Under the pieces are notes generated by a model. The model saw nothing but the letters and a program-made list of their open reading frames with translations. It did not search any database and was not told where the DNA came from. 42,092 nt of DNA, taken from assembly GCA_913058195.1 (NCBI GenBank), contig CAJXPP010000002.1, positions 1 to 42,092 of the forward strand, in the 5' to 3' direction. The DNA comes from an uncultured Gammaproteobacteria bacterium. GTDB taxonomy: Bacteria > Pseudomonadota > Gammaproteobacteria > Nitrosococcales > Methylophagaceae. Numbering within the stretch: the stretch's first letter is position 1; each line of letters begins with the position of its first letter. The position numbers and the translations under genes are program-made. This document shows, piece after piece, positions 94-42,092 of the stretch.

Positions 94-351
94 ATGAATA
101 ACATAACTAATTTATTTAAAGATAAAAAAGGCTTTGAGGTTGAGTATATTTATTCTGGTGATGTGATCACAGGAGTTACGCACCCTGAATGGCCTTATGT
201 GATAACCAAGAACGGAGCGCAAAGAGCTTTAGTTTGTAAAGAGACAGGCGAGCCGTTCGGTAAATTAATGAAAGATGATTTTAATGCTATATTAATGTGC
301 TGGTTATTGATTGACGACCCGCAACTAATAGACCAAGCAAAAGCAAACTAA
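94..351 (+). CDS. Hypothetical small protein (cassette-like ORF)
   Basis: 85-aa ORF; stop TAA overlaps the R''-like TAAC of the following attC-like element. Confidence 0.7.
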   Translation: MNNITNLFKDKKGFEVEYIYSGDVITGVTHPEWPYVITKNGAQRALVCKETGEPFGKLMKDDFNAILMCWLLIDDPQLIDQAKAN

Positions 352-437
352 CCTAAGCAACAGAGGCGAAAACCAACGCCACTGTTAAATTGATAGAATA
401 ACCAACTGTTTTCGTCCTTTGATTGCAGTTGTTATGT
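347..437 (+). repeat. attC-like element 1
   Basis: CTAAC...GTTATGT boxes; L'' CAACAGAGGCGAAAAC pairs with L' GTTTTCGTCCTTTGATTG, with extra T and A on the L' side. Confidence 0.65.
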
Positions 438-462
438 TGCGAACTGAATAGGAGAGAGAAAG

Positions 463-684
463 ATGTTAGAGCAAAAAATATTAGATGAAGCGCCAGAAGG
501 GGCGACACATTACTGTAAGGGTGATTATTACAGAGAGGTTTTTATTGATAACGGTAACGGTGGTCAGTCGCAAGCGTTTGATTTTTACTGGGTTGAGGAA
601 GATAAATGGTACAACGAAACCGTACCTCATGGCATTAGGTCGTTAAATGACATTAGAGAGATAGCTGAACTTAAAGCAACATAA
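463..684 (+). CDS. Hypothetical small phage-type protein (cassette-like ORF)
   Basis: 73-aa ORF; preceded by GGAGAGAG; stop inside ACATAAC. Confidence 0.75.
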   Translation: MLEQKILDEAPEGATHYCKGDYYREVFIDNGNGGQSQAFDFYWVEEDKWYNETVPHGIRSLNDIREIAELKAT

Positions 685-738
685 CCTTTTAAATAAACTG
701 CGAGCGTAGCGAAGTCAGATTTGATTTTGTTGTTATGT
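679..738 (+). repeat. attC-like element 2
   Basis: ACATAAC/GTTATGT perfect 7-bp R boxes; L'' AAATAAACTG vs rc(L') AAATCAAATCTG with extra C and T. Confidence 0.65.
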
Positions 739-762
739 TCGTTTTTAAATAGTGAGAGAAAT

Positions 763-960
763 ATGGAACCAGTTACAGAAAGCTACGAAGTAAAAACAGA
801 AGACAAAGAGCTTCACACGATAAATGTAATTATTGAAGCGCTGATAAGGCACATAGATAGAAGCAAAGACAATCCTAATTGCGAAGAAAACATAATTAAC
901 GGACATAAGGCCGCCATAAGAATTATTGACTATGTATCTGCTAGGATTAAAAACACATAA
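763..960 (+). CDS. Hypothetical small protein (cassette-like ORF)
   Basis: Internal ATG of ORF 721-960 with upstream GAGAG; stop inside ACATAAC. Confidence 0.65.
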   Translation: MEPVTESYEVKTEDKELHTINVIIEALIRHIDRSKDNPNCEENIINGHKAAIRIIDYVSARIKNT

Positions 961-1031
961 CCTAAAGCACAGAGGAAAATACGTTTAGCTTGGAACAAGC
1001 TGTATTTTTCCTTTGATGTAAGTTGTTATGT
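955..1031 (+). repeat. attC-like element 3
   Basis: ACATAAC/GTTATGT perfect R boxes; L'' CACAGAGGAAAATAC vs L' GTATTTTTCCTTTGATG; AGCTTG/CAAGCT apical hairpin. Confidence 0.7.
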
Positions 1032-1048
1032 GACGTACTGGGGGAATT

Positions 1049-1264
1049 ATGAAAACACACTTTAGCGATGATGAATATGCAGAAGAAGGGATATGCAATA
1101 TATATTCTGAGGAAATATCTAACCACTGGCGCGAAGTTACTTGTAAAAAGTGCCTAAACTTAAGAGATAAATACGAGGCTTTAGTTATTGTTGAGGAGCA
1201 AGATATAGTAAATCAAATGGGGGGGGATTTTGTAGAGTTTCATCAAAAACACAAAGACACATAA
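1049..1264 (+). CDS. Hypothetical small Cys-containing protein (cassette-like ORF)
   Basis: 71-aa ORF; TCKKC motif; stop inside ACATAAC. Confidence 0.7.
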   Translation: MKTHFSDDEYAEEGICNIYSEEISNHWREVTCKKCLNLRDKYEALVIVEEQDIVNQMGGDFVEFHQKHKDT

Positions 1265-1345
1265 CCTAGCACTAAACGGTTGCCTGCTCCCATGTAGAAT
1301 AGGCGACCAACTGTTATGCAATCCGATTTGAGTGGGTTGTTATAA
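1259..1345 (+). repeat. attC-like element 4
   Basis: ACATAAC/GTTATAA; L'' CTAAACGG vs rc(L') CTCAAATCGG with extra C and T; TTGC/GCAA continues the stem. Confidence 0.65.
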
Positions 1346-1373: not shown

Positions 1374-1541
1374 ATGAAAAAGAGAACGGCACCAAAATAT
1401 AAATGCAAAACACACGGGTGTGTGCGTATAGGTAATTTGAGTGGAATTTGCGGAAAGGTGCGATGTGGGCCAGAAGGTTATTGCGGAGCGCATGGTAACA
1501 CCAAGTGCGTAAATAAAATAAAGATTACAGAGGTGGATTAA
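1374..1541 (+). CDS. Hypothetical Cys-rich small protein
   Basis: Internal ATG (MKKRTAPKYKCKTHGC...) after AAAGGAAG ribosome-binding site. Confidence 0.6.
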   Translation: MKKRTAPKYKCKTHGCVRIGNLSGICGKVRCGPEGYCGAHGNTKCVNKIKITEVD

Positions 1542-6090: not shown

Positions 6091-6609
6091 ATGAAGGCTA
6101 AAAAAAGAGATTTAACGCAAGAGCAGTTAATGTGTATGTTTGATTACGACCATAAAAAAGGGATGTTGTTTAGAAGGTGTTTTTCTAACGGTTTATTTAT
6201 AGGTCTAGAGCGAGCAGGAAGTAGTAATGAATCATGTGGATATAGATATATAGAAATACATGGAATTAATTACCTAGAGCACAGGCTTGTTTGGGTTTAC
6301 GTTACAGGTGCGTGGCCTTTGGACCAATTAGATCACATAAATAAAAAAAGGTTCGATAATAGATTTTCAAACTTAAGGCAGGTTAGCAACTCTGAAAACC
6401 AAAAGAACACCACACTAAGAAAAAGTAATACGTCTGGAATTATGGGTGTTCACGCCAGAAGTGATAACGGCAAATGGTCAGCAAGAATAAACCATGATGG
6501 AGAAAGATACACGCTGGGATCTTTCGATAGTTTTCTTGAGGCTTGTTGCGCTAGAAAATCAGCAGAGGCTAGATTTAGTTATCATATAGATCACGGTAAA
6601 TCATCATGA
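6091..6609 (+). CDS. HNH homing endonuclease with AP2-type DNA-binding domain
   Basis: LEHRLVWVYVTGAWPLDQLDHINKKRFDNRFSNLRQVSNSENQKN...TSGIMGVHARSDNGKWSARI. Confidence 0.9.
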   Translation: MKAKKRDLTQEQLMCMFDYDHKKGMLFRRCFSNGLFIGLERAGSSNESCGYRYIEIHGINYLEHRLVWVYVTGAWPLDQLDHINKKRFDNRFSNLRQVSNSENQKNTTLRKSNTSGIMGVHARSDNGKWSARINHDGERYTLGSFDSFLEACCARKSAEARFSYHIDHGKSS

Positions 6610-8303
6610 GGAGCTTAGCAAAAAGGCTAGAATTTATAGAGCCTCGGATTTTATCCCAAGCGGGAGCATTAGATAAAACCGTATACGGTATAGTTGATAA
6701 GGTTGATAAGGTTGACGGTGAATTAGTTCCTCATTTCGTTAGGAAGTGGAAAGGAACCATAGGGCATATGGAGCCAACCGATGACAAGCCAACAATATGG
6801 CTCGTAGAAAAGCTAGAGCCTTTAATATTAAAACACAGAAAAGTAAAAGGGGCTTGGGGTGGTCGCGCTGGAACTAAGTCTATTATGGCAATGGATGCCA
6901 TGGTGGGTGAGGTTAACTCTAGCGGTGTTGGTGTGTTTTGTTTGCGTGAAAGAATGAAGTCTATCTCTCAATCAATATACAAAGGCATAAACGGCAGGAT
7001 AAGCGAGTTAAATTTTGCCGGGTTTAATCCTGTCGAATCTAAATGGAAAATAGACCATAGAAGCGGTGGTATAATATCTTTTGGCGGTTTAATGAATGTC
7101 GAAGATATGAAATCTTTATTTAAATATAAGTACTTCTTTCTTGAAGAGGCAGCCAAGACAAGTCAACACGCACTTGATACATTGGGACCTACTTTAAGGG
7201 GCGTTGATGGAGCAGAGCAATGGATGATTTGGAATCCTTTATCAAGCAATGATCCTATGAGCCTAGAGTTTATAGTTCCTTACCAAGAGCATTTTGATAG
7301 ACAAGGTTATTATGAAGATGATCACCATTTAATTATAAAGGTTGGTTATGAAGATAACCCGTTTTTTGAGCATGATAAATCATTGGTTGAAGAGTTCGAA
7401 AAAGACACAGCAAAAGTTAAGGACGGGCGAATGAGCAAGGCTAGATATAATCACATATGGCTAGGTGCGTTTAATGATGATATAGAGAACTCTATCATAA
7501 ACGCTGACTGGTTTGATGCCTGTATTGATGCCCATATAAAGTTAGGGTTTCAACCTAAAGGGGCGATTGTTGTTGGGCATGACCCCGCCGATGTAGGTGG
7601 AGACAAGAAAGGCTATATACAAAGGCATGGCGTAGTATTCACAAAGGCTGAAGAAATAGACTCAGTTAACGCAAATGACGGATTCGACATAGCGTGTAGA
7701 TACGCAAAAGAAGCAAACGCCGATTCTTTTGGTTTTGATGCTGACGGAATGGGAGCGCTATTAAGAAGGCAGGCAGATGACAACTTTAAGGGAACTAAGA
7801 TGCACACCTTTATGTACAAAGGCAGTGAAGGCGTCCATTTGCCTGATGCTATCTTTGATGCATCAGAAAACTACAACATGAAAGGGCAAAAGAAAAACAA
7901 GGACGTATTCAAAAATAAGAAAGCTCAAAACATTGTTTCGTTTGCTGAAAGGTGTAGAAGAACTTGGGAGGCCGTTACTCTTGGTGTATACCATGACCCC
8001 GACACCTTAGTCAGTTTTGCCAGCTACAAAAAAGAAACAGGCGAAGGAATAGACAAGCAAACGATGAGCAAGCTTAGGTCTGAGTGTTGTCGTATGCCAT
8101 TTAAACCAGGTGATACAATAACTTTCTACTCAAAAGAAGAGATGAGAAAGGGTGTTTTACAGCCAGATGGTAGCAAAACTAAGATACCATCGCCTAACCT
8201 GTTCGATGCCGCGGTGCTTTCTTTTGATAAATCAAGTATAATAAATAACATCGAGAAAATAGATGTCAGCACGATACAAACAACAAAAGTTAGTCACTGG
8301 TGA
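6606..8303 (+). CDS. Terminase large subunit
   Basis: Walker-A-like WGGRAGTKS, FFLEEAA Walker B, nuclease motifs VVGHDPADVGGDKKG and DADGMG. Confidence 0.9.
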   Translation: MRSLAKRLEFIEPRILSQAGALDKTVYGIVDKVDKVDGELVPHFVRKWKGTIGHMEPTDDKPTIWLVEKLEPLILKHRKVKGAWGGRAGTKSIMAMDAMVGEVNSSGVGVFCLRERMKSISQSIYKGINGRISELNFAGFNPVESKWKIDHRSGGIISFGGLMNVEDMKSLFKYKYFFLEEAAKTSQHALDTLGPTLRGVDGAEQWMIWNPLSSNDPMSLEFIVPYQEHFDRQGYYEDDHHLIIKVGYEDNPFFEHDKSLVEEFEKDTAKVKDGRMSKARYNHIWLGAFNDDIENSIINADWFDACIDAHIKLGFQPKGAIVVGHDPADVGGDKKGYIQRHGVVFTKAEEIDSVNANDGFDIACRYAKEANADSFGFDADGMGALLRRQADDNFKGTKMHTFMYKGSEGVHLPDAIFDASENYNMKGQKKNKDVFKNKKAQNIVSFAERCRRTWEAVTLGVYHDPDTLVSFASYKKETGEGIDKQTMSKLRSECCRMPFKPGDTITFYSKEEMRKGVLQPDGSKTKIPSPNLFDAAVLSFDKSSIINNIEKIDVSTIQTTKVSHW

Positions 8304-29573: not shown

Positions 29574-29625
29574 ACATAACCTTCACTAACAAGGACGCTC
29601 CGCGCCTTGTAGTTTTCAGTTATAT
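29574..29625 (-). repeat. attC-like element 6
   Basis: On minus strand: ATATAAC...GTTATGT; L'' ACT-ACAAGG vs rc(L') ACTAACAAGG (extra A on L'). Confidence 0.5.
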
Positions 29626-29838: not shown

Positions 29839-29898
29839 ATATAACAAGGCAATCAAGCGCGATTTCGCAAGCTCAACACCTTATTACTATGGTTATCT
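29839..29898 (-). repeat. Intercistronic hairpin, weakly attC-like
   Basis: ATAAC/GTTAT ends; stop codon of NinB-like gene inside the ATAAC; asymmetric spacer. Confidence 0.35.
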
Positions 29899-30336
29899 CT
29901 CATACTCTAAAGCCAAACCCTGTTGACCAAAAAAGTATTGTAAATCATCCCGCAACTTATTGTGCATCGGCGTTGTAAATAGCCGCGTTACAGGTATCTT
30001 GTCCATTAATTCAAGCTGTCGCTCATAATCAAGATTAAAGAAACCGTTTGATTCCATACCATCACGAACAACAAAGCCAAAGTCTTTATTGCTAAATAAG
30101 ATAGGCAGGCCAAAAGTTAATTTAACATACCTGGTAGCCTCGTTAATCGTTAAAGCCATGTGGTCTGATATTGGACCGTACCAAGATTGATAAACAGAGT
30201 TAGCAGGATTAGACCGCTTATTTTCTCGCTTGGTTATATTTAAAAAATAACCTTGAGACGGATTACTAGCTATAAGCGCGTCAATCTGCTTATAAACTTC
30301 CGCTTTAGTTGTTAGTGATAGTCTTACGTTTTTCAT
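29893..30336 (-). CDS. ninB: NinB-like recombination protein (lambda Orf family)
   Basis: RSNPANSVYQSWYGPISDHMALTINEATRYVKLTFGLP; position in nin-like operon. Confidence 0.65.
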   Translation of the reverse strand: MKNVRLSLTTKAEVYKQIDALIASNPSQGYFLNITKRENKRSNPANSVYQSWYGPISDHMALTINEATRYVKLTFGLPILFSNKDFGFVVRDGMESNGFFNLDYERQLELMDKIPVTRLFTTPMHNKLRDDLQYFFGQQGLALEYER

Positions 30337-30350
30337 ATTCCTCCCTCTAA

Positions 30351-30740
30351 TCATTCGCCTTCAACGTAATTAAAGGTTGTTGTGCCGCCAAGCCCCTTAG
30401 ATGTTGTTCTTGTTATTACTCCGTCATTTTCTAGCAATCTAGCACAACGGAAAACTTCACCCTTACATATACCGGCCTTTAATTGCAAATCTAAAGAAGT
30501 TAGAACTTTAAACTTTTTAATAACAAACTCAGTTTTTTGTATATTGCTTAAGCCTTTAAGCTCAGCAGGTGTATCAATAGGCTTTTTGGCTGTTTTCTTG
30601 TTAATAGTTCCTGGTAAAATATCGCTCTTTTGTCGCGATGGTATAACGTTAATTTTATTGCCTGCTTTAACGAATGCCTCACAATCTGCTAGGCATCTTT
30701 CGTGCTCTGCGTTTGCTTCTGCTGTTGTATTGCTCATCAC
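30351..30740 (-). CDS. Hypothetical protein with winged-helix-like C-terminus
   Basis: LDLQLKAGICKGEVFRCARLLENDGVITRTTSKGLGGTTTF. Confidence 0.55.
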   Translation of the reverse strand: MMSNTTAEANAEHERCLADCEAFVKAGNKINVIPSRQKSDILPGTINKKTAKKPIDTPAELKGLSNIQKTEFVIKKFKVLTSLDLQLKAGICKGEVFRCARLLENDGVITRTTSKGLGGTTTFNYVEGE

Positions 30741-39822: not shown

Positions 39823-40416
39823 GTGATTAATTCAACAGAGCTAAATGAAATATTTAAAGCTTTATCAGCGTTTCAGGGTGAGCTAGGTAATGCAGCTAAA
39901 AACGTAGACAAGCAAGGTATAAGTTGGAAGTATGCAGATTTAGCAGAATGCATTAATGTTGCCAAGCCTCACCTAGCGAAGCATGGATTAGCGGTTACTC
40001 AGTTTATGGGTATGTATGATGGAAAGCAGTCACTTACAACAATGTTAACTCATAGTTCAGGTCAATATATATCTGATGAGGTTCAATTGCCTGATGCTGT
40101 ATTGCATGGCTCTAGCGGTAAAAACCCTGTGCAAGTTTTAGGTTCAGCCATTACTTATGTTAGACGTTATAACTATGCAGCCATTATCGGTATGGCTCAA
40201 GAAGATGATGACGGGTGCGCAGCTAATAACGCAAAACCAAAACATGGTAATGAAAAGCCTGTTAAGTGGTATCAAGAATCACAGTTCAATCAAGAGAAAG
40301 GCGCTATAACTGAAGCCATTAAAAATGGCACGCCTCCTGGCGATGTTATAGCTAACCTGCAAGGGCAAGGCTTCACAATAAACAACAAGATCAAAGACGC
40401 GATTAATTCAATTTAA
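39823..40416 (+). CDS. erf: ERF-family single-strand annealing recombinase
   Basis: GNAAKNVDKQGISWKYADLAECINVAKPHLAKHGLAVTQ...GSAITYVRRYNYAAIIGMAQEDDDG. Confidence 0.9.
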   Translation: MINSTELNEIFKALSAFQGELGNAAKNVDKQGISWKYADLAECINVAKPHLAKHGLAVTQFMGMYDGKQSLTTMLTHSSGQYISDEVQLPDAVLHGSSGKNPVQVLGSAITYVRRYNYAAIIGMAQEDDDGCAANNAKPKHGNEKPVKWYQESQFNQEKGAITEAIKNGTPPGDVIANLQGQGFTINNKIKDAINSI

Positions 40417-40520: not shown

Positions 40521-40982
40521 ATGGATTTATCTAGAGCTAGAGTTAAAGTTGTTGAAAGGGTGAATATAACAGATAGCGGTTGCTGGGAGTGGAAGCTAAA
40601 AATTCGCCCGAATGGTTACGCTAGAGTTACTTATTTGCGTCAAAGTTTTTACGCGCATAGGTTGTCATTTTTAGCGTTCAACGGTCATCTTGATGGCAAG
40701 TTAGATGTTTGTCATTCGTGCGACAACAGAAAGTGTGTTAACCCAGCGCATTTATTCCAAGGGACACGAAAGGATAATATGCAGGATGCGGCATCAAAAG
40801 GGAGAGTGGCAACGGGTGATAAGCTACCTCAAACAAAAATACACGGATCAGACTTGGAGCATGTTTTGTATATGGCTAAGGCTGGCGTCAAATATAAAGA
40901 AATAGCTGATATTTACGGAATGACACCCCAGAGTATCGGTAAAATCGCAATAAAACATAATATTAGAAGGAATAAGAAATGA
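40521..40982 (+). CDS. HNH homing endonuclease with C-terminal HTH
   Basis: [17 protein letters not shown]...[45 protein letters not shown]. Confidence 0.9.
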
Positions 40983-41482
40983 GTAGCGTGAACAAAGTTA
41001 TAATTATTGGTAATGTTTGCAAGGAGGTTGAAACTATATTTATGCCTAACGGTGGCGCTGTTTCAAATTTAACTGTTGCCACAAATGAAAAATGGAAAGA
41101 TAAAAATACTGGTGAACAAAAAGAAAAGGCGGAATTCCACCGTGTTTCGATGTTCGGTAAGTTAGCGGAGATTGCTGGCGAATACTTAAAGAAAGGCTCA
41201 AAGGTTTATATTGAGGGTAAGCTTCAAACTCGCAAGTGGACTAACCAACAAGGACAAGATCAATACACTACTGAAATTGTATTGCAAGGCTTTAACGGTG
41301 TGATGCAAATGCTTGACGGTAAATCAGGCGGTCAATCGCAGGGCGCACCACAACAACAGGCTCAAGGCGGCTTCCAACAACAAGCACCATCTCAAGGTGG
41401 ATTCCAACAACAGCAAGGCCAGCAACAAGGCGGCTTTGCTCCTCAAGGTGGTTATGCTAACGACAATAAACCAGCATATTAA
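40979..41482 (+). CDS. ssb: Single-stranded DNA-binding protein
   Basis: [76 protein letters not shown]; Gln/Gly-rich tail. Confidence 0.95.
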
Positions 41483-41539
41483 CAATTAACGCAATATCAC
41501 AAGGAAGTGGATTGCACCTATAAAGTAGAGGTGAGTAAC

Positions 41540-41737
41540 ATGTTTCTAATCGAGAACGAAAAAGGCTCTTTTGTAGATGCTGAAAAGATTGATTGTATAA
41601 ATACAAATGGCGGAAAGATAACTTTTACGCTAAGTGGTGATATAGAAAATGAGTATTCTGTATCTGCTGACTGTAATGATCAATTCTTAAACCATCTTGG
41701 CGCGATAGATGGTAATCCTTGGCGCGATAGATGGTAA
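41540..41737 (+). CDS. Hypothetical protein, C-terminus altered by 22-bp repeats
   Basis: Internal ATG of ORF 41507 after AGAGGTGAG. Confidence 0.6.
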   Translation: MFLIENEKGSFVDAEKIDCINTNGGKITFTLSGDIENEYSVSADCNDQFLNHLGAIDGNPWRDRW

Positions 41738-41762
41738 TCCTTGGCGCGATAGATGGTAATCC
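41697..41762 (+). repeat. 22-bp tandem repeat x3 (TTGGCGCGATAGATGGTAATCC)
   Basis: Three perfect copies, followed by partial TTGCGCC. Confidence 0.95.
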
Positions 41763-41800
41763 TTGCGCCAGTTTATTTACACCAAAGTAGAGGTGAGTAT

Positions 41801-41948
41801 GAATATAGCCACAACCCACACACAAAGACGCTGTAAATTTTGCAGGAATAATCTTTTTATCGGTTGCGGCTATTATTCACTAGGCCATAACAAATACATA
41901 TGTGAGCAATGCAATAATTTAATGGTGTGGTGCTTAGCTATAACCTAG
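41801..41948 (+). CDS. Small zinc-ribbon-like protein (CKFC...CEQC)
   Basis: Internal ATG after AGAGGTGAGT; 2x CxxC. Confidence 0.65.
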
Positions 41949-42023
41949 AGCTAAACGGGCGCTAACACCTAAATTAGAGTTAGCGACCAACTTTGTGCGC
42001 TCCTTTTGAGCGTGTTGTTAGTT
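41938..42023 (+). repeat. attC-like element 5
   Basis: CTATAAC...GTTAGTT; L'' GCTAAACGGGCGC vs rc(L') GCTCAAAAGGAGCGC (extra C and A); apical GCTAAC/GTTAGC. Confidence 0.65.
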
Positions 42024-42047
42024 TTGCTGATGACACAAATATATAAG

Positions 42048-42092
42048 CTGTCTCTTATACACATCTGACGCTGCCGACGATCTACTCTGTGT
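42048..42092 (-). other. Untrimmed Illumina Nextera i5-side adapter (artifact): CTGTCTCTTATACACATCTGACGCTGCCGACGA + index TCTACTCT + GTGT
   Basis: Exact reverse complement of the Nextera read-1 adapter plus an i5 index. Confidence 0.98.

Follow-up and report, generated by a model that had tools for sequence, protein, structure and literature searches.

The window, a stretch of 42,092 nucleotides, corresponds to one entire contig from a fragmented, 86%-complete assembly of 2.46 Mb. Apart from adapter sequence at its two ends it represents a P22-like phage, as the sequence-only reading of this DNA had maintained: PHROG families are matched by its terminase, its portal and scaffold proteins, its coat protein and Hc3. 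The gene of the terminase large subunit (6606..8303, plus strand) is followed by the portal, coat and Hc3 genes, and among named phages the closest terminases belong to phages of Vibrio lentus (59%). Towards the right end the plus strand encodes an Erf-like ssDNA annealing protein (39823..40416) and a single-stranded DNA-binding protein (ssb, 40979..41482), directly 3' of whose homologues arrays are found in other phages. A 22-base unit in three exact tandem copies occupies 41696-41765, 3' of ssb and just before the ORF at 41799. Adapter sequence of the Nextera type, common to approximately 40 contig ends of the assembly, is present at positions 1-50 and about 42048-42092, and consequently the array is truncated at both contig ends. 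Copies of the phage DNA are present in IMG/VR as two contigs (3300038491_000026 and _000049; 35,063 and 6,972 bases), and the IMG/VR contig L358 contains the same DNA as the right end of the window and extends 54 bases further.

The array consists of small plus-strand ORFs alternating with hairpins that we designate as minus-strand attC sites. Its left part comprises cassette ORF 1 (94..351, 85 aa, with its stop TAA within the R box of attC1), attC1 (about 345/346..438), ORF 2 (463..684, 73 aa, weakly matching PHROG families of unknown function), attC2 (679..738), ORF 3 (763..960, 65 aa), attC3 (955..1031), ORF 4 (1049..1264, 71 aa, phrog_30413, with a Vibrio phage relative at 44% amino acid identity), attC4 (1259..1345) and a final ORF of 55 aa (1374..1541), after which no attC-type site was found. 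At the right end, the stop codon TAG of an ORF with a zinc-finger-like Cys pattern (41799..41948, plus strand) lies 3 nt inside attC5 (41938..42023, minus strand), whose recombinogenic bottom strand is the plus strand of the window; the contig ends shortly beyond, and the position of this site implies that both contig ends fall within one array. All four elements of the earlier count are present, each starting with ATAAC or CTAAC that carries the upstream stop codon and ending with GTTA, but the array has five sites, the fifth being found within the interval 41400-42050 that had been named for checking. A sixth copy, attC6 (29839..29898, plus strand), constitutes a second location, antisense to minus-strand genes, and its R box holds the stop TAA of an ORF at 29893..30354 (minus strand). 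Adjoining minus-strand genes, the stretch 29590-29625 (CACTAACAAGG...CAGTTATATT) is possibly a degenerate attC-like sequence. Read along the genes, the layout of a unit is C-attC(antisense)-GTTA-RBS-ORF-TAA.

The sites were assessed with a pairing scanner and two covariance models, of which the first (R1) was built from 24 attC sites, contributed by a V. anguillarum integron, by Shewanella and class 1 integrons and by phage TJE1, with no site of the window phage among them, and the second (R2) was built from phage sites including those of inverted layout. Two TJE1 sites outside the R1 training set score 22.8 and 23.8. In the window R1 matches attC2 (23.4 bits, E 7e-4), attC4 (21.6 bits, E 2e-3) and attC6 (16.3 bits, E 0.065), that is, two of the four sites initially reported, or two of the five array sites, plus attC6. 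The lack of full-length R1 matches for attC1 (a partial match of 11.6 bits), attC3 and attC5 (9.2 bits) counts against the explanation we favour below. R2 assigns 28.2 bits to attC1 and, on the same DNA in L358, 38.8 bits to attC5, both sites being members of its training set. The scanner gives 34.5, 38.0, 38.5 and 37.0 for attC1 to attC4, compared with a maximum of 32.5 in more than 1 Mb of other phage sequence, and 33.5 and 30.5 for attC5 and attC6. The E values of attC2 and attC4 and these scanner scores bear out the original recognition of attC-type sites.

R''/R' boxes with a paired AAC...GTT core are found in all six sites of the window, and their columns are invariant in A2. Extrahelical bases on the R''-L'' arm and an unpaired central spacer are likewise present, less clearly so in attC1, attC3 and attC6. 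Among 33 phage sites the covariation supports the bulged attC pairing (0.252) over slid versions of it (at most 0.141). Folding of the DNA in silico, a check proposed at the outset, gave a divided answer: attC3 (955-1031) folds clearly better than shuffled sequences (z about -4), attC2 (679-738) and attC4 (1259-1345) adopt the attC shape but are no more stable than expected, and attC1 (345-438) and attC5 (41938-42023) have competing hairpins. The unremarkable folding energies of attC2, attC4 and attC6 count against the favoured explanation as well. Chance hairpins can be ruled out on sequence and scores. Judged from sequence, the hairpins are real attC-type sites. This assignment is strong when the array is considered in its entirety, and less so for attC1, attC3 and attC5 taken singly. 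With at least two close attC sites, two of them recognised by R1 and the others by the scanner, and no integron integrase nearby, the array can be classified as a CALIN. Searches with the array DNA and the attC of one relative against known phages returned chance matches only, those of a loose attC pattern search in IMG/VR look like chance only, and protein searches with the products of cassette ORFs 2 and 4 retrieved their own contig only.

Intrinsic terminators were considered and rejected, as no T-tract follows any of the four elements first described, in agreement with the sequence-only reading. The hairpins might nevertheless function in RNA, as weak terminators, in translation coupling or by affecting mRNA stability, with their attC likeness being secondary. 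They would indeed be co-transcribed with the genes, and in some relatives an RBS and ATG lie within the hairpin. We find this hardly credible, given that the T-tract is missing, that an Rfam search yielded no match, and that neither the asymmetry of the extrahelical bases nor the R-box core is expected of an RNA element.

The polarity of the sites differs from that first proposed, which had the extra bases on the L' arm and each attC in the orientation of its ORF. Extrahelical bases lie by definition on the R''-L'' arm and set which strand recombines (PMC2727003), so the labels of the arms had been swapped. As the extrahelical bases are found on the GTTA-side arm, the attC polarity is that of the minus strand (plus strand for 29839-29898), antisense to the genes. 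A sense orientation is likewise overturned when the sites are aligned with attC sites of Vibrio and of class 1 integrons, and every R1 match in the window is antisense to the genes around it. Canonical gene cassettes, in which ORF and attC share their orientation, are therefore not what the window contains. The stop codon is located at the predicted crossover point, TAA|C, and the antisense polarity is consistent.

About 20 IMG/VR contigs of aquatic phages show this inverted layout, an ORF with its TAA stop in the R box of an antisense attC. Two pattern searches of IMG/VR together with terminase relatives provided 22 contigs with R2 matches. In these, 48 sites have an antisense ORF that reaches its stop within the R box, 13 have a sense ORF and 25 neither; the offset of the stop within the R box is identical for every antisense ORF. 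R2 had been built from such sites, and for this reason the census was repeated with R1 alone, resulting in 19 antisense, 5 sense and 8 neither, against 0, 30 and 9 in integron controls (Fisher p 2e-10 for the antisense and sense counts, with sites in one contig not being independent). Contig G068, in which sense ORFs outnumber antisense ones, counts against the favoured explanation. A terminase related to that of the window is encoded in 8 of the 22 contigs and has no match in the others, some of which are fragments. R2 found no attC in the terminase relatives L023, L024 and L026 (up to 88% identity), nor in the named phages closest to the window (MG592390, MG592643 and MG592444, all from Vibrio), and the relative of ORF 4 in a Vibrio phage has no attC beside it.

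A sample of 80 ssb homologues, not selected for attC, provides insight into the location of the arrays. All 17 attC sites found there (nine loci) point against ssb, most of them at most 3 kb 3' of it, as do 15 of 15 sites in the seven contigs outside the R2 training set. R1 calls the same strand wherever its match has an E value under 0.1, and the ORFs of the sample are antisense in eight cases and sense in one. The array of the window sits 3' of ssb, a position that recurs as a hotspot of accessory genes of this type.

Some further features of the related arrays deserve mention. In three contigs (L306:3716-3765, L218:11553-11602 and L328, also named G069) the gene-distal array end carries a conserved palindrome some 50 bases long (ATAACAAAGAGTTCGCGCGTCGAGG...); oriented opposite to attC, it is possibly a fixed insertion site. 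The loop of some attC sites contains an RBS and start codon (L216, L219 (G072), L319, L325 (G080, G061)), so that the cassette protein has an attC-encoded N-terminus, and one array repeats near-identical attC copies (L304 and L305, G066).

Comparisons between related phages show that whole cassettes are exchanged, although the comparisons alone do not prove an integrase. Contigs G067 and G074 have exactly one unit (C-attC-ORF-TAA) in common, which is about 80% identical between unrelated flanks; both junctions are at TAA|C, and the ORF lies downstream of the attC, which is the unit predicted by the polarity. In G061 and G080 common flanks (95.7% identical on the left, 78% on the right) surround two and four unrelated cassette ORFs, respectively, with the right junction at TAA|C and the left one keeping the attC. 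These pairs differ by whole cassettes, and the gain or loss at the expected points that the sequence-only reading had listed among the tests of its proposal is thereby seen in relatives. A different pattern is displayed by ORF 3 of the window, whose DNA is 81% identical in a different phage (G066): the homology ends at the attC borders and neither whole attC is common to both. This ORF-only sharing and the left junction of G061 and G080 count against the favoured explanation, since ordinary homologous recombination may account for some of the exchange.

It is conceivable that the hairpins serve as homology linkers, conserved intergenic repeats of 50-90 nt by which Erf/SSB annealing recombinases or host RecA shuffle small genes with no integron integrase involved. 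Erf and ssb adjoin the array, attC copies of 88-96% identity are flanked on both sides by unrelated ORFs, and the window and G066 have the ORF segment only in common. We nevertheless regard this as unlikely, because it leaves unexplained the retention of attC structure, extrahelical bases and compensatory changes in divergent copies, their recognition by a model trained on integrons, and the junctions exactly at TAA|C. T4-type phages possess PeSL (promoter early stem-loop) elements, stem-loops between small interchangeable phage genes, which provide a lead only. We know of no attC-type asymmetry or R-box core in PeSL elements.

No integron integrase exceeds the cut-off in the 22 phage contigs, which counts against the favoured explanation and at the same time supports the earlier assertion that the phage has none of its own. 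The window's own assembly (86%-complete) likewise has no intI over the cut-off, only sub-threshold tyrosine-recombinase matches, and a complete integron, i.e., an intI gene with attI, is found neither there nor in the phage contigs. This assembly does hold several canonical attC sites, and of 28 host genomes from the same genus, 11 encode an intI scoring above the cut-off. Among the attC sites of this genus that could be classified, every one except a single site has a sense ORF. The host attC sites appear to be of a different sequence type, a further point against the favoured explanation. Supply of an IntI by the host would be plausible.

The missing integrase, together with the poor R1 scores of three of the five array sites, might also suggest a relic, i.e., bacterial cassettes taken up once by the phage and now fixed and inert as an ordinary CALIN. 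This appears highly improbable, as bacterial cassettes, those of the host genus included, are sense whereas the cassettes here are antisense, as related phages differ in array content, and as phage-type genes, such as those for dUTPase and DNA methylase, occur as cassettes.

CALINs have been described from the virulent phages TJE1, P12002L and PH101, with IntI1 recombining five of the six attC sites tested (Qi et al. 2023, PMC9892861), and the initial impression that no equivalent had been described does not hold in view of this 2023 publication. Like the window, these phages possess attC clusters without integrase, together with methyltransferases and small ORFs whose function is unknown (PMC9892861). 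However, the ORFs of TJE1 are sense, and the four canonical attC sites of PH101 are accompanied by ORFs on both strands with stops outside the R boxes, in contrast to the antisense ORFs of the window with their stop at the crossover. The recurrence of arrays 3' of ssb is likewise a feature of window-type phages when set against the TJE1 and PH101 CALINs. Sedentary chromosomal integrons (Vibrio anguillarum, Shewanella) share the R''-L''-VTS-L'-R' arrangement with extrahelical bases and usually have one ORF per unit, but unlike the window phage they possess an integrase and attI; in the integron controls, which include class 1 and own-assembly sites, ORFs are sense to attC in 30 of 30 classifiable sites. 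No description of a systematic inversion or of an ssb hotspot was found in the literature searched, which excluded most subscription papers and all bioRxiv preprints. Phage CALINs being already known, the apparent novelty lies in the systematic inversion, with junctions fused to stop codons, and in the hotspot close to ssb.

The structure is real, recurrent and cassette-like. We interpret it as probably being a phage-adapted integron cassette array that lacks an integrase and is mobilised by one in trans; IntI-driven mobility of these sites is what we infer. During infection, an integron integrase from the host or a co-resident element would act on the array and would recombine the folded plus strand of the window at the R' box, which, given the inverted polarity, would immediately follow the upstream gene's stop codon. 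Owing to this position, neighbouring genes and the phage operon would stay intact at each insertion or loss. A wider proposal, which we are slightly more inclined to doubt than to accept, is that a dedicated pool of reverse-polarity cassettes is common to phages whose terminases are unrelated. Host-integron integrases acting in trans would insert these cassettes behind stop codons at the ssb-proximal hotspot, and the whole would form a phage-side integron system distinct from the bacterial pools.

The inverted polarity leads to a testable prediction, namely that crossover would occur exactly after each stop codon and that the recombinogenic strand would be the coding strand. If our interpretation is correct, phages would not just pick up integron fragments but use an attC-based cassette exchange fitted to phage operons, and small accessory genes, among them those for dUTPase, methylases, a restriction-alleviation-like protein and many unknowns, would have a defined route between unrelated phages.
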